Source of the DNA: Synechococcus sp. MEDNS5
GTDB taxonomy: Bacteria; Cyanobacteriota; Cyanobacteriia; PCC-6307; Cyanobiaceae
NCBI RefSeq assembly: GCF_014279875.1
Contig: NZ_CP047952.1
Location: 2,356,001-2,420,000, forward strand
Direction of reading: 5' to 3'
DNA: 64,000 bases
Below the pieces are notes generated by a model. It did no database searches and was not told where the DNA came from. It was given only the letters and a program-made list of their open reading frames with translations. Position 1 is the stretch's first letter, and every line of letters begins with the position of its first letter. A program made the position numbers and the translations under genes. Shown piece after piece: positions 5,664 to 20,870 of the stretch.

Positions 5664-6472
5664 TTCACGTCATCGAGAAGTCCTGGAAGCCAGCGCTCAA
5701 CGGCTGCAGACCACCCCAGCGCATGGGGGGCCGGTGCCAACTTGAAACGACCATCCGCCAGTCCGGCCTGAAGGTCGGGATGCGGTCCATCCACCCCTGG
5801 CACCACGATCGAGCGGTCGCCGGCGTGCAGCAAAGGAAGATCATTGGGCGAATCACCCAAAGCCAGAACAGCCACCTCAGACGCTCCCTGGCGCTGCTTC
5901 AGCACCGCAAGGGCCCGGCCTTTGCTGACGTCGGCTCCCAGCAGATGCCCCAAGCGATTTCCCTGCACAACTGCAAGTTGACGGGCCTTCGCCAGCTGTT
6001 GCAGGCGCCTGCGGGACTCGGCATCCAGCGGAGAAACGAACGGCACACTGCAGGCCCGACGCTGGGCCTGTCGCAGTGCTTCCCCGCCCAGGCCAAGCAA
6101 GCGATCGGCGTCCTGATCACTGAGATCGTCAAGCGCCTGCAACGGTTGCCCCAGATCCCGTGCCAGCACTGAGAGCTGTGGGCGCAGCTCCTGCCATGAC
6201 GGACCGAGCCGCTGCTGCCAGGGGCTCCCATCGGCGTTCTCACCATGAATGGCTCCCCCATTCTCGACGATGAAAGGATCCCGAAGTCCGGTTTGTTCAC
6301 GGAAACGACGGACTTCTTCCGCTGTTTTGCTCGTACATGGAATGACGGGAATACCCCGACGCTGCAGCAGACGAATCGTGCCCAGAGCCGGTGCCCAGTC
6401 GTAGCGATGGTCCATCAACGTGCCATCGAGGTCGGTAACCACCCACCACTGACGCCTCAGGGTTGTCTTCAT
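5651..6472 (-). CDS. gpgP: glucosyl-3-phosphoglycerate phosphatase (MpgP-like HAD)
   Basis: This 273-aa HAD-superfamily IIB phosphatase is of the mannosyl-3-phosphoglycerate phosphatase type. Motif I is TDLDGTLMD with Asp14 and Asp16, followed by the IPVIPCTSKTAEEV and PFIVENGGAI segments of the family, and GDSPNDLPLL near the C-terminus as motif IV. Next to GpgS it should dephosphorylate glucosyl-3-phosphoglycerate to the compatible solute glucosylglycerate. It overlaps the upstream GH13 gene by 4 bp, so the two are probably co-translated. The substrate assignment rests on the neighbourhood; the HAD family call is firm. Confidence 0.88.
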   Translation of the reverse strand: MKTTLRRQWWVVTDLDGTLMDHRYDWAPALGTIRLLQRRGIPVIPCTSKTAEEVRRFREQTGLRDPFIVENGGAIHGENADGSPWQQRLGPSWQELRPQLSVLARDLGQPLQALDDLSDQDADRLLGLGGEALRQAQRRACSVPFVSPLDAESRRRLQQLAKARQLAVVQGNRLGHLLGADVSKGRALAVLKQRQGASEVAVLALGDSPNDLPLLHAGDRSIVVPGVDGPHPDLQAGLADGRFKLAPAPHALGWSAAVERWLPGLLDDVNQVD

Positions 6473-8199
6473 GACCTCACCAGCCAGAGCACCTCATAAG
6501 GGTTCAACAGATGGCGTTTGCAGGGCTCCAGGGTGCGGCCACTGAGGCAATCGACCCAGAGTGATGCATCCTCCTGGTCGAGCAGTCCGGAGGGATCCAG
6601 GCTGAGACGGGTCGATGTGACGTTATGAACCGCCAGAAGGTCATGACCTGCGTGGGAACGGCGCAACACGACACGATCCACCCGGTCTGGGGTCAGCACC
6701 TGAAGCTGGCCATCCGGATGCAGCGCCGGCAGCGTTGCCCGCACCGCAAGTGCCTGCTTCAGCGCAGTCAAAACGGCTGAGGCATCACTGTCTGGATCCT
6801 GCAGACGACGTTCCAGCGTCCTTTGCTTGAACTGGGGTCGGTTGAGATCCCGTCGATGCCCCGAGCGCCTGAAGCGACCGAGGTCATTGGCGGTGGCGAG
6901 CAAAGCCGGCAGATAGAACGCCGGAACTCCAGGCAGAGCGAGCACCATCAACTGGGTGAGCAGAAAGCGTTCCCTCTGCCGATAGCTGGGGTCAACGCCC
7001 CCATCGGCCATGGCGCTCCACCAGCTGATGTTGATTTCGTAGGGCACTTCAGTGCCATCGGCCAACCGGCGATGGCTCACCAGACCCCCGCGCTGCTCAC
7101 ACGCGATCAACAGCTCCCTCAACCGTGACGGCGGCATCAATCCCTCCAACGGTCTCAGCCCCACGCCGTCATGACAGGCGGTGAAATTAAGCAACGACGT
7201 CGACTCCGGTAGCGACGGCCAGCGCGACAGCCAACGATTGAGCAATTCAGCGGAGCCGCTGACAGCCGCCTCAAGCAGCAGCGGTGGCAGGGGAAAGTTG
7301 TAGGCCAGATGGGCCTCTCGACCCGTGCGCAGATACGACAGATTCTCCTGTTCAGGGACATTCGTTTCCGTGACCACCACTCCGTCGGCGCAGGCGATCG
7401 TCAGCAACTGACGCAAAAGTTCCACCAGCTGATGGGCTTGAGGCTGGTGAATACAGGTGGTGTTGGGTTCCTTCCAGACGAACCCCACCGCATCCAGACG
7501 GATCCAGCCCACCCCATGAGCCACCATGCGGGCGAGCAGGCGGGTGAATCCGAGCAGAACCTCGGGGTGGCGCCAATCCACATCCACCTGGTCGGGCCCA
7601 AACGTGGTCCAGACCTGACGCATGCTGATGGGGCCCTGGAGCTTGGTGAACAGTGCGGAACTGCGGGGACGCACCACGTTGTCCCAACAGGGATCAGGAC
7701 CCGCCTCCAACACGCAGAACCGACCCGGCTCCTGATCGCGCAAGAACTGGCGCACCCAGGGATGGGAGGCCGACACATGGTTCAACACCAGATCAGCCAT
7801 CAACTTGCGCCCCTGGGCAAGATCAGCGAGATCGCTCCAATCACCATGGCGTTCCTCTAGACGTTCGTGACTGGCCACCGCGAATCCGCCATCGCTCGAG
7901 GCCTCCAGGAACGGCAACACATGGAGAACCGCCGCGAACTCAGAGAGCTGGCTGTTCAAAAAGGTGCGAAGGCTCACCAAGGCCGGCTGATCGGCCTCAA
8001 CGACCGTGTCGGCGTAGGTGATCAGCACCACATCGTCGACACTCCAGGGATTGCCTTTGGTGCGGATTTCGCCATTCGCCGATGTGGAGCCGAGAATCTG
8101 CAGCAATTGCGACGACAACGTCTCGAGATCCCCGGAAGGATGATCTGAGTAAAGGCTCCTCAGCAGATTTCCCAGCGTTTGCTCGCTCTGAAGCTGCAC
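6469..8199 (-). CDS. GH13 sucrose-phosphorylase-like enzyme, probable glucosylglycerate phosphorylase
   Basis: This is a 576-aa (beta/alpha)8 glycoside hydrolase of the sucrose phosphorylase group. Visible landmarks are ADLVLNHVS, the nucleophile block WIRLDAVGF (Asp236), the acid/base TETNVPEQE (Glu278) and the third acid in TACHDGVGLRP. Related GH13 enzymes include sucrose phosphorylase and glucosylglycerate phosphorylase. Co-location with the gpgS and gpgP genes makes reversible phosphorolysis of glucosylglycerate the likeliest activity, though sucrose or another glucoside cannot be excluded from sequence. It overlaps gpgP by 4 bp and is divergent from gpgS across a 68-bp gap. Confidence 0.82.
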   Translation of the reverse strand: MQLQSEQTLGNLLRSLYSDHPSGDLETLSSQLLQILGSTSANGEIRTKGNPWSVDDVVLITYADTVVEADQPALVSLRTFLNSQLSEFAAVLHVLPFLEASSDGGFAVASHERLEERHGDWSDLADLAQGRKLMADLVLNHVSASHPWVRQFLRDQEPGRFCVLEAGPDPCWDNVVRPRSSALFTKLQGPISMRQVWTTFGPDQVDVDWRHPEVLLGFTRLLARMVAHGVGWIRLDAVGFVWKEPNTTCIHQPQAHQLVELLRQLLTIACADGVVVTETNVPEQENLSYLRTGREAHLAYNFPLPPLLLEAAVSGSAELLNRWLSRWPSLPESTSLLNFTACHDGVGLRPLEGLMPPSRLRELLIACEQRGGLVSHRRLADGTEVPYEINISWWSAMADGGVDPSYRQRERFLLTQLMVLALPGVPAFYLPALLATANDLGRFRRSGHRRDLNRPQFKQRTLERRLQDPDSDASAVLTALKQALAVRATLPALHPDGQLQVLTPDRVDRVVLRRSHAGHDLLAVHNVTSTRLSLDPSGLLDQEDASLWVDCLSGRTLEPCKRHLLNPYEVLWLVRS

Positions 8200-8267
8200 T
8201 CTGTTTCACCTGAACCGCCTCAGGTATGAAGCAGCCGCCTTTTTTCCGTTGTTGCATCGCACACCGC

Positions 8268-9563
8268 ATGGATTTTCAGCAGAGCCTGATCGCCACGGTT
8301 CACGACTACAGCCTGGGCAATCTCAACGCCATTGCCTTTAACAAGGAGCTCCAGCAGAGACCAACCGCTCTGCTGATCCCCTGTCTGATGGAGGAATTCA
8401 GCAGACCCGCTCTGCGCCTGATTCGCGACACGCTGTCCTCGCTCACGGGACTGTCCAATCTGGTGATCGCCCTGTCAGCGGACAGCGCAGCCGATGTCAA
8501 AGCTGCAGAGGCGTTCTTCGCGGGCATGCCATTCCCCGTGCATGTGCACTGGACAAACGGTCCGGCTGTGAGCGACATCCTCCCGTCGATGGAGCAGCAC
8601 GGACTCGATCTCACAGGCCCTCCCGGCAAGGGCTGGGCGGTTTGGCAAGGCCTGGGGGTTGCCTGTCAGCACGCGGAAGTGATCGGCCTGTTCGACGCCG
8701 ACATCCGCACCTTCGGTTCGGGCTATCCGGAACGGATGCTCAGACCCCTACTCGACCCATCCCACGGGATGGCCTACGTGAAAGCGTTCTACAGCCGGCT
8801 TTCACTGGAAACCCAAGCCCTTCAAGGCCGAGCCACCAGGTTGTTTGTTGGTCCGTTGCTGACGAGCCTGGAGCAGATCTTCGGACCACTGCCCTACCTG
8901 CGTTATCTACAGACCTTTCGCTATCCATTGGCAGGGGAGTTCGCCTTTACAAGGGATCTCGCGATGAATCTGCGCATCCCGTCGGACTGGGGCCTGGAAA
9001 TGGGCTTGCTCTCAGAGGTGTATCGGCACGTCGCACCCAGCCGCATCGCCCAGGTGGACCTGGGTCTGTTCGATCACAAGCACAAGAGCCTGGGCCAACG
9101 GCCGAACGAGGGACTGCAGCGCATGGCCAGCGAAATCTTCTGCACGGTGTTGCGCAGCCTGATGGAGCACGAGGGATGCGTGGTGTCCATGGATCAGCTG
9201 CCGACCTTGGAGGTGCTGTACCGGCGGGTTGGCGAAGATCGGGTGCGTCAGTTCGGACTCGACTCAGCGATCAATCGGTTGCCCTACGACCGACATGGAG
9301 AAGAACTGGCGGTCCATCGCTTCTCCGAACTCCTGAGGCCAGGCCTCACGTCTTTGATGGCATCGCCGATCGCCCATCAACTGCCGAGCTGGTCGAGGTT
9401 GCAGAGTTGCAACCCGTCCTTTGCCTCCGACCTCGCCCTGGCGGGACGTGCCGACCGAGCGCCCACCTTGCGCAGTCAGGGAGCAAGGCGTCCACGTCGG
9501 CCCAATTGCCCCACCGTGACACCCCCCGCTGAACGCCGCTCAGCCACCAGCACTGCGGCCTGA
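8268..9563 (+). CDS. gpgS: glucosyl-3-phosphoglycerate synthase
   Basis: GpgS transfers glucose from an NDP-glucose donor to 3-phosphoglycerate, the first step to glucosylglycerate. The product resembles the GT81 family: ALLIPCLMEEF near the N-terminus, KGWAVWQGLGVA, and the metal-binding DXD-type FDADIRTF. Later blocks are PLAGEFAFTRDLAMNLRIPSDWGLEMGLL and the metal/acceptor region LFDHKHKSLG. The ATG at 8268 (MDFQQSL) was preferred; an in-frame ATG at 8226 would add 14 residues that do not look like family sequence. The last roughly 50 residues, after PSWSRLQSC, are Arg/Pro/Ala-rich and look like an added tail. Confidence 0.9.
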   Translation: MDFQQSLIATVHDYSLGNLNAIAFNKELQQRPTALLIPCLMEEFSRPALRLIRDTLSSLTGLSNLVIALSADSAADVKAAEAFFAGMPFPVHVHWTNGPAVSDILPSMEQHGLDLTGPPGKGWAVWQGLGVACQHAEVIGLFDADIRTFGSGYPERMLRPLLDPSHGMAYVKAFYSRLSLETQALQGRATRLFVGPLLTSLEQIFGPLPYLRYLQTFRYPLAGEFAFTRDLAMNLRIPSDWGLEMGLLSEVYRHVAPSRIAQVDLGLFDHKHKSLGQRPNEGLQRMASEIFCTVLRSLMEHEGCVVSMDQLPTLEVLYRRVGEDRVRQFGLDSAINRLPYDRHGEELAVHRFSELLRPGLTSLMASPIAHQLPSWSRLQSCNPSFASDLALAGRADRAPTLRSQGARRPRRPNCPTVTPPAERRSATSTAA

Positions 9564-10258: not shown

Positions 10259-10933
10259 TTAGGCAACGAGACGGTTTAATTGCGGCAATTCTGCAAACGA
10301 ATCACGCCATTGTTGAGCCCAGAGTTCTTGGCTTCGTTCGTACACGTTCATCAGTTCGGCAACTGCCGAATCCCGAAAATCCACCCTCAGATCTAATAAT
10401 GGAAACGCTGCTTCTCCACTAATTTGCAGCGCAGCTGAAGTTGAATACGGAGAACGAGCATCACCTCCGGCAGCTTCACCTGCCATCAGTGCCGTCATCA
10501 AACGGCGACCCAACTTCCAGCATGGATCGCTTGCCAGAAAAGCCTGTTCCATGGATGTGAGAACCGTCTCGCCCACCAGATAGTTGCCAGCCACAGAAAG
10601 ATTCATTCGATGGCGATGCCCAGCCCAGAGTCCACAGTCCCCCCCCGTCCAGACAGCGGTTCGACCTTGTGCATCAATCAGGTGAAACTGGCGGCGTTCA
10701 CGGAGTGGATCATCTGCAAGCAAGCTGGCCAGCACCACATCTGCATCAGCACTCTGTTCGAGCCGTTCCAGGCCACAGATTCCTAGATATGGATTGGTGT
10801 GGGCTTGTGTCGCAACTGCACCCACTCCAGAGCGAATGTGGGGAACCGTGGAGCCCACTGCGAGATGACAGGTGGCAACGGCAACACCGAAACGACCATT
10901 GCTGGGATCACGAGCAACGATCGAGAACGTCAT
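10259..10933 (-). CDS. DUF1028 protein, predicted Ntn-hydrolase fold
   Basis: This 224-aa protein begins MTFSIVARDPSNGRFGVAVA and contains VPHIRSGVGAVATQAHTNP and GNYLVGETVL, the standard landmarks of DUF1028. The family adopts an N-terminal-nucleophile amidohydrolase-like fold, and Thr2 would be exposed after Met removal. The biochemical role is not established. It overlaps the upstream N-carbamoyl amino acid hydrolase by 4 bp and is last in a minus-strand block that also contains an amidotransferase and a carbamoyltransferase. An amide- or ureido-bond hydrolysis role is therefore plausible but unproven. Confidence 0.85.
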   Translation of the reverse strand: MTFSIVARDPSNGRFGVAVATCHLAVGSTVPHIRSGVGAVATQAHTNPYLGICGLERLEQSADADVVLASLLADDPLRERRQFHLIDAQGRTAVWTGGDCGLWAGHRHRMNLSVAGNYLVGETVLTSMEQAFLASDPCWKLGRRLMTALMAGEAAGGDARSPYSTSAALQISGEAAFPLLDLRVDFRDSAVAELMNVYERSQELWAQQWRDSFAELPQLNRLVA

Positions 10934-12219
10934 GAGAGCACACGATCCAATTGTTCAAGGGTGTGCAAGAGAACAGCGGTTCCTGAAAGACACTGACTGT
11001 CACTGGTGAACTCAGCTGCTGAATGGCTCAAACCTTCGCGGCTGGGCACAAAGATCATTCCCATGGGCCAACGCCGCCCTATCTCTTGGGCGTCATGGCT
11101 GGCACGGCTCGGCAGCCGACTCATACTCAACCCCAAATCTTCAGCCACTGTTTCAATCGTGGCCATCACCAGCGCGTCAGCGGGTGTAGGCGACACCTGA
11201 AACTGCGGCTCCAACCGGATTGCACAGCCGGTTGCCAAGCCGATGGATTCCAACTCCTCCTGCAGGCAGGACACCAATTGGTCCAGAACAGTGGAATCCA
11301 GATCACGAATGTCCACCGTCATCGACACGGAGCCTGGAACGACGTTGGCGGCATTGGGCCAAACCTCCAGACGCCCCACCGTCGCCACCGGATCACCGGG
11401 ATGACACCGAGCCATCTCCTCCACCGCCAGCACAATCCGGGAAGCAGCGGCGAGGGCATCATGACGGAGCCCCATCGGCGTTGTGCCGGCATGGTTGGCC
11501 TGACCCTTCACATGAATGCTGAAACGTCTCTGCCCGACGATGCCCTCAACAATGCCAATGGCATCGCGCCGCTGCTCGAGCACAGCACCTTGCTCAACAT
11601 GCAGTTCAAGAAAAGCTGCAACGGCTGAATCAGGTCGTGCCGCCGAGGGCAGGGATGACCAGTGACCACCGATTCGTTCCAGGTTGATGTCAATCGGGTC
11701 CCCGTTGCTTGTGGTGTAAGCCGAGGGGTCCATCGATGCCGTTCCAGCCATGCCCTTACAGCCGACCATGGTCGACTCTTCATCAGCGAAAGCCACGACC
11801 TCGAGGGGGTGTCGTAGACGCCGCCCCACATCGCTCAGGGCACGGACGCATTCCAGGCCCGCCAAGACGCCTAGAACACCATCAAAACGACCACCTGTTG
11901 GCACCGTGTCCAAGTGCGAACCCGTCATCAGCACCGGCAACGACGGGTCCTGCCCCTCGAGCCGGCCAATCAAATTGCCAGCGGCATCCACACGCACCTG
12001 CATGCCGGCCTCTTGCATCCAGCACGCGAGCTGGTCTCGGCCTTGAACGTCCGCCGGACTAAACCCGCGGCGGCAAACGCTTCCATCTCCTTGAAGGCCG
12101 ATGGCCGCCATGGACTCGAGCGAATCGATCAACCTGTCCCGCCGAGGCAGAGCTCCTAACCACTCCCGATCAGCATCAGCTGGAGCGATTTGTGAGCGAT
12201 GAATCAGCAGCTCGGGCAA
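10930..12219 (-). CDS. M20-family N-carbamoyl-L-amino acid hydrolase / allantoate amidohydrolase-like
   Basis: This 429-aa dinuclear-metal amidohydrolase belongs to the hydantoinase/carbamoylase branch of peptidase family M20. Metal-ligand motifs are SHLDTVPTGGRFDG (His102, Asp113), FADEEST, LELHVEQG, and a C-terminal GLSHSAAEF. The dimerisation/lid segment GQANHAGTTPMGLRHDAL is characteristic of this branch. Enzymes of the group cleave the carbamoyl group from N-carbamoyl amino acids, beta-ureidopropionate, allantoate or ureidoglycolate; sequence alone does not say which. It is translationally coupled to the DUF1028 gene and lies downstream of an AsnB-type gene and a carbamoyltransferase, which favours a carbamoylated amino-acid derivative. 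Confidence 0.87.
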   Translation of the reverse strand: MPELLIHRSQIAPADADREWLGALPRRDRLIDSLESMAAIGLQGDGSVCRRGFSPADVQGRDQLACWMQEAGMQVRVDAAGNLIGRLEGQDPSLPVLMTGSHLDTVPTGGRFDGVLGVLAGLECVRALSDVGRRLRHPLEVVAFADEESTMVGCKGMAGTASMDPSAYTTSNGDPIDINLERIGGHWSSLPSAARPDSAVAAFLELHVEQGAVLEQRRDAIGIVEGIVGQRRFSIHVKGQANHAGTTPMGLRHDALAAASRIVLAVEEMARCHPGDPVATVGRLEVWPNAANVVPGSVSMTVDIRDLDSTVLDQLVSCLQEELESIGLATGCAIRLEPQFQVSPTPADALVMATIETVAEDLGLSMSRLPSRASHDAQEIGRRWPMGMIFVPSREGLSHSAAEFTSDSQCLSGTAVLLHTLEQLDRVLS

Positions 12220-12314
12220 GGATCGTGACCTTCAGTTCAAACCAAATGTCACTTTCGCTTTGAAACCCAATTGAACTTGTCGTCAATGCGACGTTTTAAC
12301 GCTCACCAAAGAAA

Positions 12315-14339
12315 TCAAACGGGCATCAGCACCCGCCAACCGAGGTGATCGGCCTGCTCACGAGCTTGGGCTGGCACATCAGCCGCCACAAACATCCGAT
12401 GCAACATCTGCACACCCAAGAGGTGGTTGATCACGGCGTCCATCTGAACCCGCTCGGCGTCTGTGGTGGCAGGGTCGTCGTGGCGCGCAAACAAGGCACG
12501 CACTCCCTGTTTGCTCAACAACCCAGCCGCATCAATCGCCTCATCACTCAGGTAGTCATCAGCTAACTGCTTCATCTGCGCCCACTTCTCAGGCTCCGTG
12601 TGGGCGGGAGGAGCCATGAAGGCAAATTTCTCGCGCTTGTAAAGCACTTCCGGCAGCAAGCCCGCCATCGCCTCACGCAGCACGTATTTCTCGGTTTTGC
12701 CCTTGATCCGCAGCTCCGGAGGCACCTGCACCGCTGCAGCCGCCAGATGATGATCCAGGAAAGCCGGCCGTGCCTCCATGGAATTGGCCATGTCGACGCG
12801 ATCCCCTCCCCAGGTGAGGATCTGGCCTTCCAACATCGTTTTGATCCAGACGTACTGAGCCTTGTCGAGGGCATGGCGACCCTCGAGTTGCTGGGGATTC
12901 AACTGATCGGCAATCGCCTTACCCGGCGAATACTCCGCTAACGCCTGACGGTGCTCGTCAGCAAGCAGATCCGGCACCAGCGGCGCGCAGGCCAGCCAGG
13001 GCTGCAGACAGCTGGGGGTGAACCCCACCACGGCATCAAGGTAGGGATCATCCACCTGATCAGCCGCCAGCATCGCTCCCTGCACCAGGGAATTGTTGGT
13101 CTGAAGCAGAGATTCCCAATCCTGGCGGTCGCTTTGCGGCAGATCATCCAAACCATGGAGGAACATGTCGCGCCGGAAGGCGGGATAGCCACCGAACAGC
13201 TCGTCTGAGCCTTCCCCGGTCATCACGACCTTGTAATCAACGTTGTTGACGTGGCGACTCATCAGATATTTGGCCACAGCCAGGGTGTTGTAGATCGTGC
13301 GCTCGGTGTGCCAGAGCGTCTGTTCCATGTGGCCGTACAACTCACGACCGGACAGACGCATCACGTCCTGTTCAGCACCAGTGGCCTCCGCCATCTCGGC
13401 AGCAATGGGTGTTTCGTCGTAGCGGACATCATCAAATCCGATCGTGAAGGCCTTGACGGGACCCTGACTCACCGCCGATGCCAGACCGAGGATCGAACAA
13501 CTGTCGATGCCGCCGGAGAGATAACAACCAACCGGCACATCCGCCACCATCCGCATCTCCACGGCTTCCAGCAGAGCAGCCCGCACATTGGCAATGTGAT
13601 CGGCCTCGGTGAGGGTGCTGTCCCGCTGATCCAAACGGGGAAAATCAACATCCCAATAGGTGGACTCCGACACCTCAAGCCGGTCACCCCTGCGTTGCAC
13701 CTTCAGCACATGCCCGGGCTGAACCTGGTGCACCCCGGCAAAGGCGGTCGTTCCAGGAACCATGGTCTGCATCAACTGATGAAACAGACCCTCCGAGGTG
13801 AAACGTCGCTCCACAGCCGGATGGGCAAACAGCACCTTCAACTCGGAGCCGAACACCACTCCCTCCGGCGTCATCGTCCAGTACTGGGGCTTGATGCCAA
13901 AGCGATCCCTCACCAGATACAGACAGTCGTCCACGGCATCAAACAAGGCGAAGGCGAATTCCCCCCGCAGCAAGGGCAACGTGGACTCGAGACCTTGCCG
14001 CTGATACAGGCGCAACAAGATCTCGGAATCACTCTTGGTGCGGAAGCGCGCCCCCTGGGCCGTGAGGTCAGCCCGGATGCGCTGGAAGTCGTAGAACTCG
14101 CCGTTGTGCGCCATCAGCACCTGGCGGTCGTCGCTGAGGAAGGGCTGCCTCGCCCGCGATTCGTTCAGATCAATGATCGACAAGCGGGCATGACAGAAGC
14201 CGACACCAGCAGCGTCGATGCATTCCACACCGAAACCATCCGGACCCCGATGGGACTGAATGGCCGCCATGTTCACCAACAACTGACGATCCAACGTCTG
14301 ACGACGATCCGCCAGAAAGACACCTCCGATTCCGCACAT
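12315..14339 (-). CDS. asparagine synthetase (glutamine-hydrolysing) family amidotransferase
   Basis: This 674-aa protein has both halves of the AsnB family. The N-terminal class II glutaminase starts MCGIGGVF (Cys2 nucleophile after Met removal), with SHRGPDG and AHNGEFYDF. The C-terminal ATP-pyrophosphatase domain has the PP-loop SGGIDS at 275-280 and TGEGSDELFGGYPAFRR. Standard AsnB makes asparagine from aspartate and glutamine. Relatives such as AsnO amidate other carboxylates, for example in N-acetylglutaminylglutamine amide synthesis. It lies 9 bp downstream of a carbamoyltransferase gene on the same strand, so a specialised amide-forming role is as likely as plain asparagine synthesis. 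Confidence 0.9.
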   Translation of the reverse strand: MCGIGGVFLADRRQTLDRQLLVNMAAIQSHRGPDGFGVECIDAAGVGFCHARLSIIDLNESRARQPFLSDDRQVLMAHNGEFYDFQRIRADLTAQGARFRTKSDSEILLRLYQRQGLESTLPLLRGEFAFALFDAVDDCLYLVRDRFGIKPQYWTMTPEGVVFGSELKVLFAHPAVERRFTSEGLFHQLMQTMVPGTTAFAGVHQVQPGHVLKVQRRGDRLEVSESTYWDVDFPRLDQRDSTLTEADHIANVRAALLEAVEMRMVADVPVGCYLSGGIDSCSILGLASAVSQGPVKAFTIGFDDVRYDETPIAAEMAEATGAEQDVMRLSGRELYGHMEQTLWHTERTIYNTLAVAKYLMSRHVNNVDYKVVMTGEGSDELFGGYPAFRRDMFLHGLDDLPQSDRQDWESLLQTNNSLVQGAMLAADQVDDPYLDAVVGFTPSCLQPWLACAPLVPDLLADEHRQALAEYSPGKAIADQLNPQQLEGRHALDKAQYVWIKTMLEGQILTWGGDRVDMANSMEARPAFLDHHLAAAAVQVPPELRIKGKTEKYVLREAMAGLLPEVLYKREKFAFMAPPAHTEPEKWAQMKQLADDYLSDEAIDAAGLLSKQGVRALFARHDDPATTDAERVQMDAVINHLLGVQMLHRMFVAADVPAQAREQADHLGWRVLMPV

Positions 14340-14348
14340 CAGTTCGCC

Positions 14349-15464
14349 TCAGATCACATCCATCACCCGCTCGGCACGGTTCACCATGCAGGTGAGCAAT
14401 GCCATGCGCAGAAACACCGCCCCACGCGCCTGGCTGAAGTACCAGTTGTGCGGCGTGTCATCCAAACAGGTGCTCAGCTCGGGGCCTCGGGCCAAGGGGT
14501 GCAGCACGATCGCCTCCGGCTTGAACGGCAGATCCCGCGTGAGACGAAATCCACCGCCGTGCACTTCATAGCTGTCGCCAACCCAGGCGATCGCATTGAT
14601 GTAAACGACATCGAGATCGGGAATCTCAGCAGCCAGATCTGAACTGCAGCGGATGGACATCCCGCTCGCTTCCAGTTCCTCCAGCTGGCCCGAATCAAAC
14701 AAAGGCGCTTCCGACTCCACCCCGGCCGCATGAATCACCACCACCTCTTCAAGGATCTGAGGGAATTTGCTGAGGATCCGCAGCAATGAACGCACAGTGC
14801 GCATCCGCGACGGCAAACCGATCACCCCGATGCGGATCCGGTCCTTGGGTGACACCTCCGTCTTGGCGAGGCTCGGACGCCACTTGAAAATCGTGTAGAG
14901 ATCCGCCATTGCCTGGGTCGGATGCTCATCAATGCCATTGCCGGCATTGATAATCGGAATCCGCAGGGTGGATGTCATGGCGTAAACGGCCTCTGGGTTG
15001 CTGTCGCGCAGCACCACACAGTCGCCGTAGTTGTTGAACATATGCGCAATATCCTCCAACGACTCACCTTTGGCGATGCCTGTGGTGCTGCGATCGGTGA
15101 TGTTGATTGAATCACCGCCGAGGCGATGCCAGGCGCTATCGAAAGAGAGACGCGTCCGCGTGCTGGGCTCGTAGAAAGCGTTGATCAGGATCTTGCCGGT
15201 GAGCGGAGTGTTGTGCCGGCAGTAACGGTCCGGATTGCTCTCGAATTTGGCAGCCAATCGGAACAACTGGAGCAGGGTTTCGGAGCGAAACGCCTGAATC
15301 GAAACCACATGCTGGTCGACAAGATCCAACAACGGCTCGCCATCTTCTGTGATGGAGGCCAGAAGCTCTTGAGGCTGGTTTTGGCCGAACACGTCGGGAC
15401 CCATTGGTTGGAATCGAAGTGGCGCCGATGCCTCCTCGACCACGGCTATGTGGGGTTGTGCCAT
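14349..15464 (-). CDS. aspartate/ornithine carbamoyltransferase-superfamily protein of altered specificity
   Basis: This 371-aa protein shows the carbamoyl-phosphate half of ATCase intact: STRTR at 101-105, an 80s-loop-like KGESLED with Lys132, HPTQ at 181-184 and HPLAR at 322-326. It also has a C-terminal DDTPHNWYFSQARGAVFLRMALL typical of ATCase. The amino-acid-binding 240s loop is not that of ATCase: the expected RVQxER is replaced by AIAWVGDSYEVHGGGF at about 291-306, and the SMG motif of ornithine transcarbamylases is absent as well. There is an N-terminal extension of roughly 50 residues. It is therefore probably not housekeeping PyrB, and its acceptor is likely an unusual amine. It pairs with the AsnB-type gene downstream. 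Confidence 0.85.
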   Translation of the reverse strand: MAQPHIAVVEEASAPLRFQPMGPDVFGQNQPQELLASITEDGEPLLDLVDQHVVSIQAFRSETLLQLFRLAAKFESNPDRYCRHNTPLTGKILINAFYEPSTRTRLSFDSAWHRLGGDSINITDRSTTGIAKGESLEDIAHMFNNYGDCVVLRDSNPEAVYAMTSTLRIPIINAGNGIDEHPTQAMADLYTIFKWRPSLAKTEVSPKDRIRIGVIGLPSRMRTVRSLLRILSKFPQILEEVVVIHAAGVESEAPLFDSGQLEELEASGMSIRCSSDLAAEIPDLDVVYINAIAWVGDSYEVHGGGFRLTRDLPFKPEAIVLHPLARGPELSTCLDDTPHNWYFSQARGAVFLRMALLTCMVNRAERVMDVI

Positions 15465-15640
15465 AAGTCATTGCATCAACACCCGACTTGCCAGATCGCG
15501 TGGTGTGCTGTGAATCACATCATCCCTCATTAACAACGGACGCCAACTGCCGCCCCACCACAGCACAAGTTCTTTAGATAATTCTCCAAAAAATGGTTTG
15601 GATCAATACAAAAGTGGGTCGATATGTTCGGCACGAACAC
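15465..15640. other. 176-bp gap, probable promoter region of the carbamoyltransferase operon
   Basis: This stretch separates the carbamoyltransferase start from the symporter/microprotein genes on the same strand. It is AT-richer than its surroundings in bases 15570-15620. No perfect GTA-N8-TAC or other recognised operator was found, and no small gene is apparent. Confidence 0.3.
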
Positions 15641-15787
15641 TTACCAGACGCGACCACCTCTCCACTCAATCCACCAGATCAACAGCAACGTAAGAACAGA
15701 ACCAACGAGCGCCACCTGGCTTCCCACCAGAACCACACGGAACCAGTGTTGATCCACCAAAACCGTAAGCAGCAACGACATAACCAT
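15641..15787 (-). CDS. 48-aa single-membrane-span microprotein downstream of the symporter
   Basis: Starting at the ATG at 15787, four bases after the symporter stop, the frame encodes 48 aa with one strong hydrophobic helix (about residues 15-40), a terminal WWIEWRGGRVW and no other motif. Position, strand and tight spacing suggest co-expression with the symporter, possibly as an accessory subunit. No family was recognised. The frame could be extended upstream to 15823, but that would run into the symporter gene. The coding call rests on composition and spacing only. Confidence 0.5.
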   Translation of the reverse strand: MVMSLLLTVLVDQHWFRVVLVGSQVALVGSVLTLLLIWWIEWRGGRVW

Positions 15788-15791
15788 GGCC

Positions 15792-17222
15792 TTACCCCTC
15801 CTCCTGCAGGCAATGGAAATCAAACCGTTCCGGCTGGCAACGACTACCCACCACCATCACGACGGCAGAGACAGCCGCGGAGAACACGGCCGCGCAATAA
15901 GGAGCAATCAAAACGTAGGCCGTCAGACCAACGACACTGCCGGCCAGCATGGCCACGATCGCCGCAGCCCGACTTGCAGATGACCAGTAAAGACCGCAGG
16001 CCACAGGCCAGACCGTTGAGGCCACCAGCGAACCAGTGAAGAACAACACCGTCGCCAGAGAGTCCAGCCGCGGCCAGGACAAAGCCAAAGTGACTACGGC
16101 CAGAAGCACCACCATCTGCCGTGCCGCTTGCTTGAGCTGCGCATCGCTCGCCTGAGGACTTAGCAAGCGGAAATAAACGTCTTCAGCCAGCAGATCCGCA
16201 GTGGACGCCAACAGCGAATCCAAGGTGGAGGTCAGTGACGCGAACACCACCACAAACACCAGAGCGGCCCCGCCAGCCCCAAGAAGATTGGCCGCCATCA
16301 CAGGGAACACCATGTTCACTTGCTCCAGCGGCAGATCCCGCGCCAGCGCGACCAGACCAATCGAGCCGGTTACCAGGGGGACACTCATCCAGGCCAGGCC
16401 CCCCAGCACAAACGAGGTCATCACCACGCCGCGGCGGCTGGCGAACACCCGCGACCACCAGATGTTGTTGTGAAACACCTCACCCATTGAGAACAGAGCG
16501 GAATTCCAGGCGATCAACAGACCGGCGGGAAGCAGCAGATCAAGCCGGTCGGGGTGCTCGGCGACCAACCGAGCATGCACCTCGGGCATCGAGAACTGAC
16601 GAAACGCCAGCACCGCCACCACCGCCAGCAACACCATGATCAACAGCGATTGGATGAAATCGGTTCCAATCACCGCCCGCATGCCACCAAACAACGTGTA
16701 AACCGTTGCGACGCCGATCACCACCACCATGCCCACGTGGTAGTCGAACCCGGATAAAGCCTGAAGCAAAAGGCCAGCTCCCATGGCCTGGGTCATCAGA
16801 AAGCCAAGGGTGTACACGGCAGTGATCACCATGAACACCCACCAAGCCAAGCGTCCATAGCGCAGCCGAATAAAATCGCCACTGGTGCGTCCGTTGGGCA
16901 TCAGCTGCTTGATGCGTGATGCCAATGGCGCAAACAGAATCAACCCCAGTCCTGCCAAGGCGTAACTGAACATGCCCCAGAGGCCTGTTCTGTAGCCGAA
17001 TTCCGGGGCCAGAAGGGTGGTGTTGCCCGTCACCCAAGACGCCATCAAAGTGGCTGTGCTCAAGGCCAACCCGATGTTGCGGCCCGCCAGCATGAAATCG
17101 TCGGCATCACCTTTGCCGCGGCGGCCCCAGGCGATCCCTAGCGCAATCCACAACACGGAGAACAGCACCACAAGCGCCCATGCAATCCCTGGTGCCAGAA
17201 AAGGGGCAGCGTCAGCGGACAT
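15792..17222 (-). CDS. sodium:solute symporter (SSS family)
   Basis: This 476-aa protein with about 13 hydrophobic segments has the SSS (LeuT-like) landmarks: GRNIGLALSTATLMASWVTG in the first core helix, ALAGLGLILFAPLASRIK, the GGMRAVIGTDFIQSLLIM loop-helix, and FASLTSTLDSLLASTADLLAEDVY. Family members carry proline, pantothenate, sugars, urea or other small solutes with sodium. The substrate here is unknown; neighbours suggest a nitrogenous compound. The ATG at 17222 overlaps the upstream microprotein by 11 bp. A longer start at 17261 would add residues that belong to that other frame. Confidence 0.88.
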   Translation of the reverse strand: MSADAAPFLAPGIAWALVVLFSVLWIALGIAWGRRGKGDADDFMLAGRNIGLALSTATLMASWVTGNTTLLAPEFGYRTGLWGMFSYALAGLGLILFAPLASRIKQLMPNGRTSGDFIRLRYGRLAWWVFMVITAVYTLGFLMTQAMGAGLLLQALSGFDYHVGMVVVIGVATVYTLFGGMRAVIGTDFIQSLLIMVLLAVVAVLAFRQFSMPEVHARLVAEHPDRLDLLLPAGLLIAWNSALFSMGEVFHNNIWWSRVFASRRGVVMTSFVLGGLAWMSVPLVTGSIGLVALARDLPLEQVNMVFPVMAANLLGAGGAALVFVVVFASLTSTLDSLLASTADLLAEDVYFRLLSPQASDAQLKQAARQMVVLLAVVTLALSWPRLDSLATVLFFTGSLVASTVWPVACGLYWSSASRAAAIVAMLAGSVVGLTAYVLIAPYCAAVFSAAVSAVVMVVGSRCQPERFDFHCLQEEG

Positions 17223-17337
17223 CCGACGCTCCCCGATCACGGCAGCGAAGATGACCGGCAAGAATCATCGCCACTGTGGCCAGGGTCACTGCAGCACCAA
17301 GGGCAAAGATCAGTCCAGCCCAGAGATTGTCATCCAA
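17212..17337 (-). CDS. 41-aa membrane microprotein upstream of the symporter, TTG start
   Basis: A TTG at 17337, preceded at about 8 nt by an AGAGGA ribosome-binding site, opens a frame of 41 codons. It encodes an acidic/Trp N-terminus (DDNLWAG), one hydrophobic helix (LIFALGAAVTLATVAMILAG) and a basic tail (HLRCRDRG). The stop overlaps the symporter start by 11 bp, so the two are likely coupled. Small single-span proteins preceding SSS symporters are annotated in other bacteria as symporter accessory proteins, and this one fits that pattern. It was identified by manual translation. Confidence 0.6.
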   Translation of the reverse strand: MDDNLWAGLIFALGAAVTLATVAMILAGHLRCRDRGASDVR

Positions 17338-17536
17338 AACGAATGTCCTCTTCAGCAGATCTCAGACAAGCAAATCGCGGTGTTCGCAAGCTTCCACCGA
17401 CTGATCACAAGGTCGCCAGGGCTACCTGAATCACAGGCTGCCAGTGGCTTGATGCCTCCAATCTCGAAATGTGTAGCAATCACAACCCGCAGCGGCTTGC
17501 TCGAGTTTTTGGATGAATCTGTTACATGTTCAGGCA

Positions 17537-19009
17537 ATGTTCACCGAGTACCGACCAACGCAGGGGTACGACGAATATTTCTGCCGAGAACAGTCCGCTC
17601 CCCGTGCTGATCTGGAGCCGCTGCTGTCCTCCCTCGGCGCCATGGGGCTGGCGGAGCTGAATCGCAGTCATGCATCAGCGAGCAACCTGTTGCGACGCCT
17701 CGGCGCCACCTTCCGACTCAACGGATCAGGTCTGCATGGCGGAGAGCGGATTCTGCCCTTCGATCCGCTGCCAAGACTCATTCACCGTCAGGAATGGTCC
17801 GTTCTGGAGCGCGGATTGGTGCAACGCCTGGAGGCCATTGATCAGTTTCTGGCGGACGTTTATGGACCCCAAAGGATCCTCAACGATGGCGTGATCCCCC
17901 GTGAGGATGTGGAGAGCTCTCAGGGCTGGCGGCCCCAGATGCAGGACATCACCGTGCCGCTCAACCGCTGGTGCCACATCTCCGGTCTGGATCTGATCCG
18001 CGATGGCAACGGCACCTGGAGGGTTCTGGAGGACAACCTGCGCTGCCCCTCCGGCGTGGCTTATTTCCTAGAGAACCGGCGGGTGATGAAACGGTTGTTC
18101 CCGAGCCTGTTTGCGGGCCGCACAGTGCAGCCAATCGACGATTACCCCTCCCATCTCTTGCGCACGCTGCAGGATCTGGCCCCCTGGAGTGATGCCCCAC
18201 GGGTAGTGCTGCTCACCCCGGGCGTGTTCAATAGCGCCTACTTCGAGCACAGCTATCTGGCCCAACAGATGGGCATTGCCCTGGTGGAGGGCCGCGATCT
18301 GATCTGTGAGGACGGACGCGTCTGGATGCGCAGCACTGCCGGCCGGGAACCTGTGGATGTGATCTACCGGCGCATCGATGACGATTTCCTCGATCCAAAT
18401 GTCTTCCGGCGTGATTCGATGCTCGGTGTCCCCGGGCTCATCGATGCCATGCGCTCCGGTCGGGTGGCCATCGCCAACGCCCCTGGGAGCGGAGTCGCCG
18501 ACGACAAGCTGATCTATGCCTACGTGCCGGCAATGATCAGGTATTACCTCAACGAAGAACCGATCATTGACAACGTTCCCACCTATCTCTGTTCAAGGGA
18601 CGACGACCTCCGTTTTGTGCTCGAGCATCTCAACGAGCTGGTGGTGAAATCAGTCGCCGAAGCCGGCGGCTATGGAATGTTGATCGGGCCTCACGCCAGC
18701 ACTGAGGAGATTGAGAACTTCGCGGTGAAGATCAAAGCACACCCGCGCAATTTCATCGCCCAGCCCACCCTTCAGTTGTCCACAGTTCCATCCCTTAGTG
18801 AAGGAGAGCTGTACCCCTGCCATGTGGATCTGCGCCCCTACGTACTGAGGGGTAAGAGCGACTGGGTCAGCCCCGGGGGCCTGACTCGAGTGGCATTGAA
18901 ACGCGGTTCCCTGGTGGTGAACTCCTCCCAGGGGGGCGGCTGCAAGGACACCTGGGTGGTCAGCGACAGCGCCGTAAAGGCCGGCAACCCGGAGCTCGTG
19001 CCGTGCTGA
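17537..19009 (+). CDS. circularly permuted ATP-grasp protein (DUF404/DUF407 type)
   Basis: This 490-aa soluble protein has the hallmarks of the circularly permuted ATP-grasp family: the QGYDEYF start, LPFDPLPRLIH, EWSVLERGLVQRL, FLADVYGPQRIL, WRVLEDNLRCPSGVAY, VDVIYRRIDDDFLDP, and a C-terminal GGYGMLIGPHAS plus SPGGLTRVA. ATP-grasp enzymes form amide or peptide-like bonds; for this branch a peptide-tagging role has been predicted computationally, without a fixed substrate. The ATG at 17537 (MFTEYRP) was preferred to an upstream one at 17513. It is the first gene of a three-gene unit with an alpha-E protein and a transglutaminase, with a 7-bp overlap to the next. Confidence 0.9.
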   Translation: MFTEYRPTQGYDEYFCREQSAPRADLEPLLSSLGAMGLAELNRSHASASNLLRRLGATFRLNGSGLHGGERILPFDPLPRLIHRQEWSVLERGLVQRLEAIDQFLADVYGPQRILNDGVIPREDVESSQGWRPQMQDITVPLNRWCHISGLDLIRDGNGTWRVLEDNLRCPSGVAYFLENRRVMKRLFPSLFAGRTVQPIDDYPSHLLRTLQDLAPWSDAPRVVLLTPGVFNSAYFEHSYLAQQMGIALVEGRDLICEDGRVWMRSTAGREPVDVIYRRIDDDFLDPNVFRRDSMLGVPGLIDAMRSGRVAIANAPGSGVADDKLIYAYVPAMIRYYLNEEPIIDNVPTYLCSRDDDLRFVLEHLNELVVKSVAEAGGYGMLIGPHASTEEIENFAVKIKAHPRNFIAQPTLQLSTVPSLSEGELYPCHVDLRPYVLRGKSDWVSPGGLTRVALKRGSLVVNSSQGGGCKDTWVVSDSAVKAGNPELVPC

Positions 19010-19986
19010 GCCGTGTGGCCGATTCGCTGTACTGGATCAACCGGTATGTCGAGCGGGCCGAGAACATCTCCCGGTTTCTGGAAGTGAGCGAAGCCATGGC
19101 CCTGGACTGCCCCCCCGGCAGCGCTGAGCCTTGGCTTCCCCTGGTGGATGCCAATGGAGACCGCAAGCGTTTTGACGAGGCCTATCCCCAGGGCACGCCA
19201 CGGGACGTCGTCAGCTTTCTGCTGCTGGATCGCAACAACCCCAACAGCATCGTCAGTTGCATCGCCAATGCCCGCGAGAACGCTCGCCAAATCCGCGATG
19301 TGATCACCACAGAAATGTGGGAACAACTCAATGATCTCTATTGGAACGTTCAAGACGGTGAAGCGCTCTGGCAGGAACCGGATCAAGAGCAACTGCGCAG
19401 CATCCGACGTGGATGTCAGCTCTTCTACGGCATCACCAATGTGACTCTCAGTCGCGATCAGGCCTGGCTGTTCAGCCAGCTGGGACGGCTGATCGAACGG
19501 GCGGACAAAACCTCACGCATCCTCGATGTGAAGTACTTCCTGCTGTTGCCGACGCCAACGGAGGTGGGCGGCGTTCTCGATGAATTGCAGTGGATCTCCC
19601 TGCTGCGCACAGCTGGGGCTTATCAGATGTATCGCCAGAGCGTTCAGCAGGCGATCACACCAGCATCGGTGGCACAATTCCTGCTGCTGGATCCGATCTT
19701 TCCCCGCTCGGTCCGCTTCTGTCTGCAGGAGATCAACGCCACGCTGGAACGCATCCGGCCAGGACCCCATGCAGGTCCTCCGGATGATCTGGAGTGCCTA
19801 CGCGGCCAGCTGTTGGCCCAATGGAGCTATGTCCGCATCGATGCTGTGATCGAACGGGGACTGCATGAGGCTGTGGATCAACTGCAGAGCGACCTCAACA
19901 AGCTGCATGAACTCATCCACCGTCGTTACTTCACCACCACCGACTTCGGCTCCATTCCCACCGACCCGTCATGCGCGCTGAGCTGA
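19003..19986 (+). CDS. alpha-E domain protein (DUF403)
   Basis: This 327-aa, largely helical protein begins MLSRVADSLYWINRYVERAENISRF, the signature of the alpha-E family that nearly always accompanies permuted ATP-grasp genes. It contains repeated RENARQIRD- and ERADKTSRILDVKYF-type helices and no catalytic motif that I recognise. It starts at a GTG (19003) inside the end of the ATP-grasp gene and overlaps the transglutaminase start by 16 bp. All three proteins are probably made together and may form a complex. Confidence 0.88.
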   Translation: MLSRVADSLYWINRYVERAENISRFLEVSEAMALDCPPGSAEPWLPLVDANGDRKRFDEAYPQGTPRDVVSFLLLDRNNPNSIVSCIANARENARQIRDVITTEMWEQLNDLYWNVQDGEALWQEPDQEQLRSIRRGCQLFYGITNVTLSRDQAWLFSQLGRLIERADKTSRILDVKYFLLLPTPTEVGGVLDELQWISLLRTAGAYQMYRQSVQQAITPASVAQFLLLDPIFPRSVRFCLQEINATLERIRPGPHAGPPDDLECLRGQLLAQWSYVRIDAVIERGLHEAVDQLQSDLNKLHELIHRRYFTTTDFGSIPTDPSCALS

Positions 19987-20870
19987 TCCACCGTCTCAAC
20001 TATCGCTACGAGGCACCGGTTCAACTGGGGGAACACCGCCTCTGTCTGCGACCCCGTGCCCAGGGCCATCAACGCCTGATTCAGCATTCCCTGCAGATCT
20101 CACCGGTTCCTGTTCACAGCCATGAGCTGTTGGCAGCCAGTGGTGATGCGATCGAGCGAGTGCGCTTCCAAGGTGCGACCGCTTCGCTTCAGCTGGAAGC
20201 CAGGAGCCTGGTGGAAACCCGCCAAGCCGCTCCCCTGCTCGATTGCTTCAACGGTCTTGAGCCTCCGCTTCCCTACCCCAGAGGTCAGTTGAACCATGAC
20301 CTGTTGGGTGCCCTGGAGGGTTGGTTACCCAACGGACAGCATGATCCTTCAGCGGTGGAACTGGCTCAGGACGCCTTGATGGGAGGCAACCAGCAAGTGC
20401 TGCCTTTTCTCCACCAGCTGATGGAGATGATTCAGGACCGGGTCAAATACACCCAGCGGCATGTGGGCCCGGCCTGGCCAGCGGGCCGCACCCTGCGCGA
20501 GCGGGTTGGATCCTGCCGCGATCTGGCGATGCTGATGATGGAGTGCTGCCGCAGCGTCGGACTGCCGGCCCGATTCGTGAGTGGATACCACTTGGCGGAG
20601 CCAGCTCCTGAGCAGTACGACCTGCACGCCTGGACCGAGATCTATCTTCCCGGAGCCGGCTGGCGCGGCTTTGATCCAAGTGCAGGAGCCGAGATCGACG
20701 AGCGCTACATCGTGCTGGCCAGTTCCTCAAAACCGGATCTCAGTGCAGCTGTACAGGGCAGTTTCACCGGCCCCATGGCCATAGGAAGCCAACTCACATG
20801 GAGCATCGAAGCCGTTGTGGAGCCGAAACCTCGCGCTGCTTCCATCGAAACAGTGGTTCAGGCCGCCTGA
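19971..20870 (+). CDS. transglutaminase-like cysteine protease/transferase
   Basis: This 299-aa protein has an N-terminal beta-rich domain (LNYRYEAPVQLGEHRLCLRPR) and a transglutaminase core with Cys182 in GSCRDLAMLMMECCRS, His219 in DLHAWTEIYLPGAGW and Asp235 in GFDPS, i.e. a complete catalytic triad. Bacterial members usually act as peptidases or amide-bond transferases rather than true crosslinkers. In this operon type it is expected to process or remove what the ATP-grasp enzyme adds. No signal peptide is evident, so action is probably cytoplasmic. Its 3' end overlaps the convergent cupin-like gene by 13 bp. Confidence 0.9.
   Translation: MRAELIHRLNYRYEAPVQLGEHRLCLRPRAQGHQRLIQHSLQISPVPVHSHELLAASGDAIERVRFQGATASLQLEARSLVETRQAAPLLDCFNGLEPPLPYPRGQLNHDLLGALEGWLPNGQHDPSAVELAQDALMGGNQQVLPFLHQLMEMIQDRVKYTQRHVGPAWPAGRTLRERVGSCRDLAMLMMECCRSVGLPARFVSGYHLAEPAPEQYDLHAWTEIYLPGAGWRGFDPSAGAEIDERYIVLASSSKPDLSAAVQGSFTGPMAIGSQLTWSIEAVVEPKPRAASIETVVQAA

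Follow-up and report, generated by a model that had tools for sequence, protein, structure and literature searches.

A conserved carbamoyltransferase and amidotransferase cassette of marine and halophilic bacteria, candidate gene set for the compatible solute N-alpha-carbamoyl-glutamine 1-amide

What compound is handled by a compact gene cluster in which a carbamoyltransferase, an amide-forming enzyme, two hydrolases and a sodium:solute symporter lie side by side? We addressed this question in a 64,000-nucleotide stretch of the Synechococcus sp. MEDNS5 genome (NZ_CP047952.1, positions 2,356,001 to 2,420,000; hereafter the window), where seven minus-strand genes are arranged head to tail between positions 10259 and 17337: mic1, the sodium:solute symporter (SSS), mic2, the carbamoyltransferase (CT), AsnB, M20 and DUF1028. 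A first-pass annotation of this DNA had named these genes and suggested that they serve N-alpha-carbamoyl-glutamine 1-amide (CGA), leaving to be checked whether CT is an ordinary aspartate transcarbamylase (ATCase) and whether the genes occur together elsewhere. All the genes it named are present where it placed them, on the minus strand, with strong domain matches. We propose, at a probability of about two in three and with the product deduced from sequence, that the cassette makes, recycles and re-imports CGA, because: (i) it is a conserved unit, (ii) its CT has lost the residues that give ATCase its specificity, and (iii) it is present, in an osmolyte-gene setting, in a genome that matches a CGA producer.

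In the proposed pathway, CT would move the carbamoyl group of carbamoyl phosphate onto the α-amine of glutamine or a similar neutral amino acid, and the AsnB-type enzyme would adenylate the free α-carboxylate and amidate it with glutamine-derived ammonia, giving uncharged CGA. In the opposite direction, the amide would be stripped by DUF1028 in cyanobacteria, or by an isochorismatase-type hydrolase in gammaproteobacteria, and the carbamoyl group by the M20 carbamoylase. The symporter, together with a small transmembrane (TM) partner, would take leaked solute back up.

The genome to which the window belongs encodes three PF02729 proteins, CT among them, and three members were found in each of seven genomes checked. 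CT is only 33% identical to the PyrB of its own genome, and scores below the ATCase cut-offs (TIGR00670, 189.4 vs 236.95; NF002032, 182.3 vs 263) and far below those of the ornithine, putrescine, N-acetylornithine and YgeW carbamoyltransferase models. Its structural model (pLDDT 80.9) adopts the ATCase fold, with a TM-score of up to about 0.9. The CTs form a fully supported clade separate from the pyrB rows of the alignment, which unites the cyanobacterial and ectothiorhodospiraceal sequences and in which the cyanobacterial copies are a single clade.

In ATCase, recognition of the aspartate side chain falls to Arg229 and Gln231, and that of the α-carboxylate to Arg167. Across 129 CT sequences, the equivalents of ATCase S52, T53, R54, T55, K84, R105, H134, Q137 and R167 are invariant, whereas the position of R229 is Ala, Ser or Thr and that of Q231 is Ala, Ser or Val in every sequence; both Arg229 and Gln231 are kept in all 11 pyrB rows. 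Two residues that are new relative to ATCase, Asn290 and Trp294, are invariant in the CTs, whose pocket motif, YIN[AS]I[AS]W, hardly varies. In the published ATCase work, Arg167 contacts N-(phosphonacetyl)-L-aspartate (PALA) and Arg229 points into the active site (PMC6056424). Since the carbamoyl-phosphate residues and Arg167 are kept and Arg229 and Gln231 are lost, the predicted acceptor is an α-amino acid with an uncharged side chain. CT is thus no ordinary ATCase, but a third, separate paralogue without the Arg229 and Gln231 equivalents.

The amidotransferase contains both expected domains and scores 423.5 against TIGR01536 (cut-off 267.1), and the Cys2 glutaminase residue and the L-S-G-G-I-D-S ATP site are invariant in the AsnB alignment. 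Of the genes that accompany CT, its gene shows the tightest linkage, and the window genome encodes no other full-length Asn_synthase protein. We considered and rejected a role as sole asparagine synthetase: since several near-complete congeners are devoid of AsnB homologues, asparagine can be made without the cassette enzyme.

In a search of 60 relatives, CT turned up in 10 of the 31 congeners and, outside the genus, in a single further member of the family. The AsnB subfamily occurs in exactly the 10 congeners that carry CT. As a whole, the cassette is conserved in roughly one third of the genomes of the genus. All 11 neighbourhoods from these relatives preserve the order mic1-SSS-CT-AsnB-M20-DUF1028, with protein identities of 71–99% for the main enzymes. 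Among 390 cyanobacterial genomes, CT is confined to the family of the window organism, in 5 of 159 genera. Two Prochlorococcus-like genomes (G688 and G829, loci L282 and L283; 34% GC, 1.7 Mb) carry CT-AsnB-M20-DUF1028 without the symporter. One congener, G017, has the whole cassette twice (L040 and L047), in diverged copies at separate sites of the genome, a hint of mobility or of functional specialisation.

Relatives outside the cyanobacteria were sought with the C-terminal domain of CT as query. The matches were to Idiomarina, Pseudidiomarina, Aliidiomarina, Kangiella, Pseudoalteromonas, Pleionea, Bowmanella and Nitrosomonas halophila, as well as to one Rhodomicrobium and one Spirochaetia metagenome-assembled genome (MAG); most of the carriers named are marine or halophilic. 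CT was found in 23 of 369 gammaproteobacteria, every match having E <= 1e-100. The SSS-CT adjacency is intact in 80 of 80 scanned loci, and AsnB adjoins in 79, the remaining contig ending inside CT. Many deeper gammaproteobacteria have the operon FN3-like TM protein, M20, isochorismatase-family hydrolase, SSS, CT and AsnB; the Idiomarina loci keep SSS-CT-AsnB without the hydrolases, and the symporter is absent from the Ectothiorhodospira clusters as from the Prochlorococcus-like ones. The genes therefore do occur together beyond the window: in cyanobacteria, in many gammaproteobacteria and in a small number of other groups. Plasmid relatives of CT from Comamonas, Burkholderia and Variovorax were set aside, as they look like second ATCases, and the one annotated neighbourhood lacks the cassette context. 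A scan of viral contigs found no relatives. One contig binned as a gammaproteobacterial MAG (L053, NYVG01000026.1) carries a Synechococcus-type cassette and is probably misbinned.

CGA, a solute known from one organism since 1991, has so far been described only from Ectothiorhodospira marismortui (PMC3857566, PMC1224877). Two of the CT-bearing gammaproteobacteria carry photosynthetic reaction centres, and in the family of these phototrophs, the Ectothiorhodospiraceae, CT is present in 41 of 47 genomes, including all 11 phototrophs recognized by PufLM among the genomes checked. Several of these carriers could be matched to species. By genome statistics and relatedness, G393 matches E. marismortui DSM 4180 (sampled G+C 67.6%, vs 68.2% for the DSM 4180 genome). 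G444, whose locus is 94% identical to that of G393, fits E. mobilis more loosely. The name of G446 is likewise looser: its HiPIP is 100% identical over 71 residues to 1hpi, which we take to be E. vacuolata HiPIP II. G177 and G483 each have a single HiPIP gene, which fits the two species with one such gene, Ectothiorhodosinus mongolicus and Thiorhodospira sibirica; G177 is likely the former and G483 probably the latter. G447 matches Ectothiorhodospira sp. BSL-9 (PMC8877833).

In the E. marismortui-like genome G393, the gene order is MarR, M20, hydrolase, CT and AsnB, flanked by a sucrose synthase gene at one end and a fructokinase gene at the other, and an MscS channel gene follows AsnB in G177, G446 and G478. 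This linkage to osmolyte genes (sucrose synthase and fructokinase, joined by MscS in several loci) is seen in the Ectothiorhodospiraceae and is not conserved in cyanobacteria. Identity to the G393 proteins is 61% for the window CT and 65% for the window AsnB, and the pocket motif YINAIAW is the same in both CTs. Ectoine synthase is absent from 10 of 12 carriers tested. Ectothiorhodosinus mongolicus is reported to lack betaine and ectoine synthesis, and CGA has been offered as its candidate solute (PMC7824335); the cluster is carried by G177, the likely genome of this species. The suggestion of CGA in the first-pass annotation is thus backed independently by a cluster beside osmolyte genes in a genome matching that of the known producer, while the product itself keeps the standing of a proposal.

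M20 scores above the cut-offs of TIGR01879 (399.7 vs 204) and NF006771 (404.5 vs 399), its best solved relative is the N-carbamoyl-L-amino acid hydrolase 3n5f, and it is also found within the operon of the deep gammaproteobacteria. DUF1028 has a relative, 2imh, that is itself of unknown function, and our literature search on DUF1028 found no function; Thr2 is conserved in all cyanobacterial copies listed, from which we would guess that the protein is Ntn-hydrolase-like. The isochorismatase-type hydrolase was not found in the cyanobacterial cassettes, where DUF1028 is present. In the gammaproteobacteria, it has a D-K-C triad, and its nearest named models are biuret amidohydrolase and RutB. Each full version of the cassette thus pairs two synthetic enzymes with two hydrolases that could, in principle, undo their work, and adds a transporter.

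The nearest solved structure to the symporter, by sequence, is the urea/H+ symporter DUR3. Its start is listed as TTG, and the true start may sit slightly downstream. The microprotein mic1 is conserved in nearly all cyanobacterial cassette copies. A protein of 145–190 residues precedes SSS in 54 of about 62 gammaproteobacterial loci (e.g. L119:7311-7874); it combines a signal-like start with a beta-sandwich-like domain and a single TM segment at the C terminus, gave no Pfam match in the one copy tested, and may be a symporter subunit. The mic1 profile matches the C-terminal TM segment of this protein (hhalign probability 95%, single comparison), a weak indication, as the match covers a single TM helix whose hydrophobicity may inflate it, and the correspondence rests partly on position. 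mic2 is conserved at 44–81% in a subset of the cyanobacterial copies, and no counterpart was found in gammaproteobacteria.

Table 1. Features of the cassette in the window
Feature	Position	Strand	Description
mic1	17212..17337	-	41-aa microprotein with one TM segment; lies upstream of the symporter and overlaps its start; probably a small subunit of the symporter
SSS sodium:solute symporter	15792..17261	-	PF00474; 489 aa; candidate for product re-uptake
mic2	15641..15787	-	48-aa single-TM microprotein between SSS and CT; ATG start at 15787
CT, ATCase-fold carbamoyltransferase	14349..15464	-	PF02729 and PF00185; altered amino-acid pocket; proposed glutamine (or similar) N-carbamoyltransferase
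AsnB-type glutamine-dependent amidotransferase	12315..14339	-	PF00733 and GATase; Cys2; MCGI... N-terminus; TIGR01536 above cut-off
M20 N-carbamoyl-L-amino-acid hydrolase	10930..12219	-	TIGR01879 above cut-off; proposed carbamoyl removal (recycling)
DUF1028 protein	10259..10933	-	PF06267, 2.6e-64; proposed amidase of the recycling arm

Genes for CP-ATP-grasp, Alpha-E and transglutaminase proteins flank the cassette in the window (17513-20870), a position kept in 8 of the 11 relatives' neighbourhoods; the CP-ATP-grasp genes are absent from the other three (L045-L047). On the other side (6469-9563), the cassette adjoins genes for a sucrose-phosphorylase-like GH13 enzyme and a GpgS-like glucosylglycerate synthase. 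The first-pass annotation had counted this glucosylglycerate locus as an argument for an osmolyte. The argument finds no support and we have dropped it: gpgS and the sucrose-phosphorylase-like gene lie beside the cassette in none of the 11 neighbourhoods, so the adjacency in the window carries little weight.

A number of observations weigh against CGA as the product. The amino-acid specificity of CT is deduced from residue loss, and the identity of G393 from genome statistics and relatedness. The E. marismortui-like genome has several AsnB paralogues that could also amidate, and CGA is a minor solute in E. marismortui (PMC3857566). In G483, neither AsnB nor the hydrolases are found beside CT (L276:8408-9493), and the Idiomarina loci have no M20 within about 10 kb. 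On the recycling side, the cyanobacterial M20 is just 38% identical to that of G393.

The same two steps could lead to another product, if CT carbamoylated a different neutral amino acid or a small peptide (asparagine, alanine or a glutaminyl peptide) in cyanobacteria and Idiomarina. The specificity of CT cannot be read from sequence alone, and the degree of identity to the E. marismortui-like proteins, 61% for CT and 65% for AsnB, leaves room for drift; but with YIN[AS]I[AS]W nearly fixed among the CTs, the same YINAIAW in the window and in the E. marismortui-like genome, and the cyanobacterial and ectothiorhodospiraceal enzymes in one clade apart from pyrB, we regard such a switch as unlikely. 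The cassette might instead be a catabolic island, in which the symporter would import ureido or amide compounds, M20 and DUF1028 would hydrolyse them for nitrogen, and CT would run in reverse, by phosphorolysis to carbamoyl phosphate. Catabolic carbamoyltransferases exist, the symporter is nearest to DUR3-type urea symporters, and the cassette holds two hydrolases. The tightest partner of CT, however, is an AsnB that, with intact Cys2 and SGGxDS, is biosynthetic; Idiomarina has retained SSS-CT-AsnB in the absence of hydrolases, and the Ectothiorhodospira and Prochlorococcus-like loci have retained CT-AsnB in the absence of a transporter, which makes a catabolic role quite improbable.

We give even less credence to the idea that the product is no osmolyte but a secondary metabolite, or that a thiol is modified, as in glutathione amide. 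Natural-product cyclisation is another task of AsnB-type enzymes, and glutathione amide has been found in both Chromatiaceae and Ectothiorhodospiraceae (PMC8877833), but there are no thiol or assembly-line genes among the conserved neighbours, and most of the named carriers are marine or halophilic. Glutathione amide, moreover, needs neither a carbamoyltransferase nor a carbamoylase, and E. marismortui and E. mobilis lack the glutathione reductase that stands proxy for it (PMC8877833). A housekeeping explanation, with CT as a second ATCase and AsnB as the asparagine synthetase clustered by chance, would agree with the names that generic annotation gives, and with the lack of any other full-length Asn_synthase protein in the window genome. 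It is already contradicted, and we assign it almost no probability: the genome has two further carbamoyltransferase paralogues, CT is distant from its own PyrB (33%), falls under the ATCase cut-offs and has lost Arg229 and Gln231, near-complete congeners do without any AsnB homologue, and the linkage is conserved across phyla.

CGA synthesis and recycling therefore stays our preferred function. We lean, narrowly, towards the broader claim that the cassette is the first identified CGA gene set, and that numerous marine bacteria, open-ocean Synechococcus and certain Prochlorococcus-like cells among them, make CGA or a very close relative as an overlooked nitrogen-rich compatible solute, which is shed and then retaken by a dedicated symporter. 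If true, a new branch of the carbamoyltransferase superfamily would gain a function, the route would be testable in culturable strains (Idiomarina loihiensis and marine Synechococcus), the cluster would fill the stated solute gap in Ectothiorhodosinus mongolicus, and a metabolite with four nitrogens per six carbons might circulate unnoticed in the surface ocean.

Compared with known systems, the structure of CGA needs exactly a carbamoyl transfer and a carboxylate amidation, and the genome matching DSM 4180 holds the cluster; yet CGA is known as a compound from a single organism, and no biosynthetic gene or enzyme for it was found in the literature searched, with most subscription journals outside coverage. 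CT shares with ATCase (PyrB) the fold, the STRT motif, and the K84, R105, H134, Q137 and R167 equivalents, but differs in the small residues at Arg229 and Gln231, the invariant Asn290 and Trp294, an N-terminal extension of about 50 residues, and its presence as a separate paralogue in every genome checked. The symporter has DUR3 as its best sequence match among solved structures, but is shorter (489 residues vs about 700), is linked to CT-AsnB and has a small TM protein alongside. M20 is homologous over its whole length to the L-carbamoylase/hydantoinase-carbamoylase family (3n5f; ErtE) and above the TIGR01879 cut-off, but falls below the ErtE cut-off and is linked to a synthesis operon. The gammaproteobacterial hydrolase shares the fold family and the D-K-C triad of BiuH and RutB in the isochorismatase superfamily, but lies far below the equivalog cut-offs, and cyanobacterial cassettes have DUF1028 in its stead. 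A parallel in proposed chemistry is the amidotransferase of N-acetylglutaminylglutamine amide (NAGGN; TIGR03104/AsnO), likewise AsnB-type, for which the shared step would be the α-carboxylate amidation of an N-capped glutamine osmolyte. The similarity to TIGR03104 is moderate (294.6 bits, below the cut-off of 570.1), and the XrtA-type model TIGR03108 is closer, though the cassette enzyme is also far below the cut-off of that model; what sets the cassette AsnB apart from the NAGGN system is that its partner is a carbamoyltransferase.

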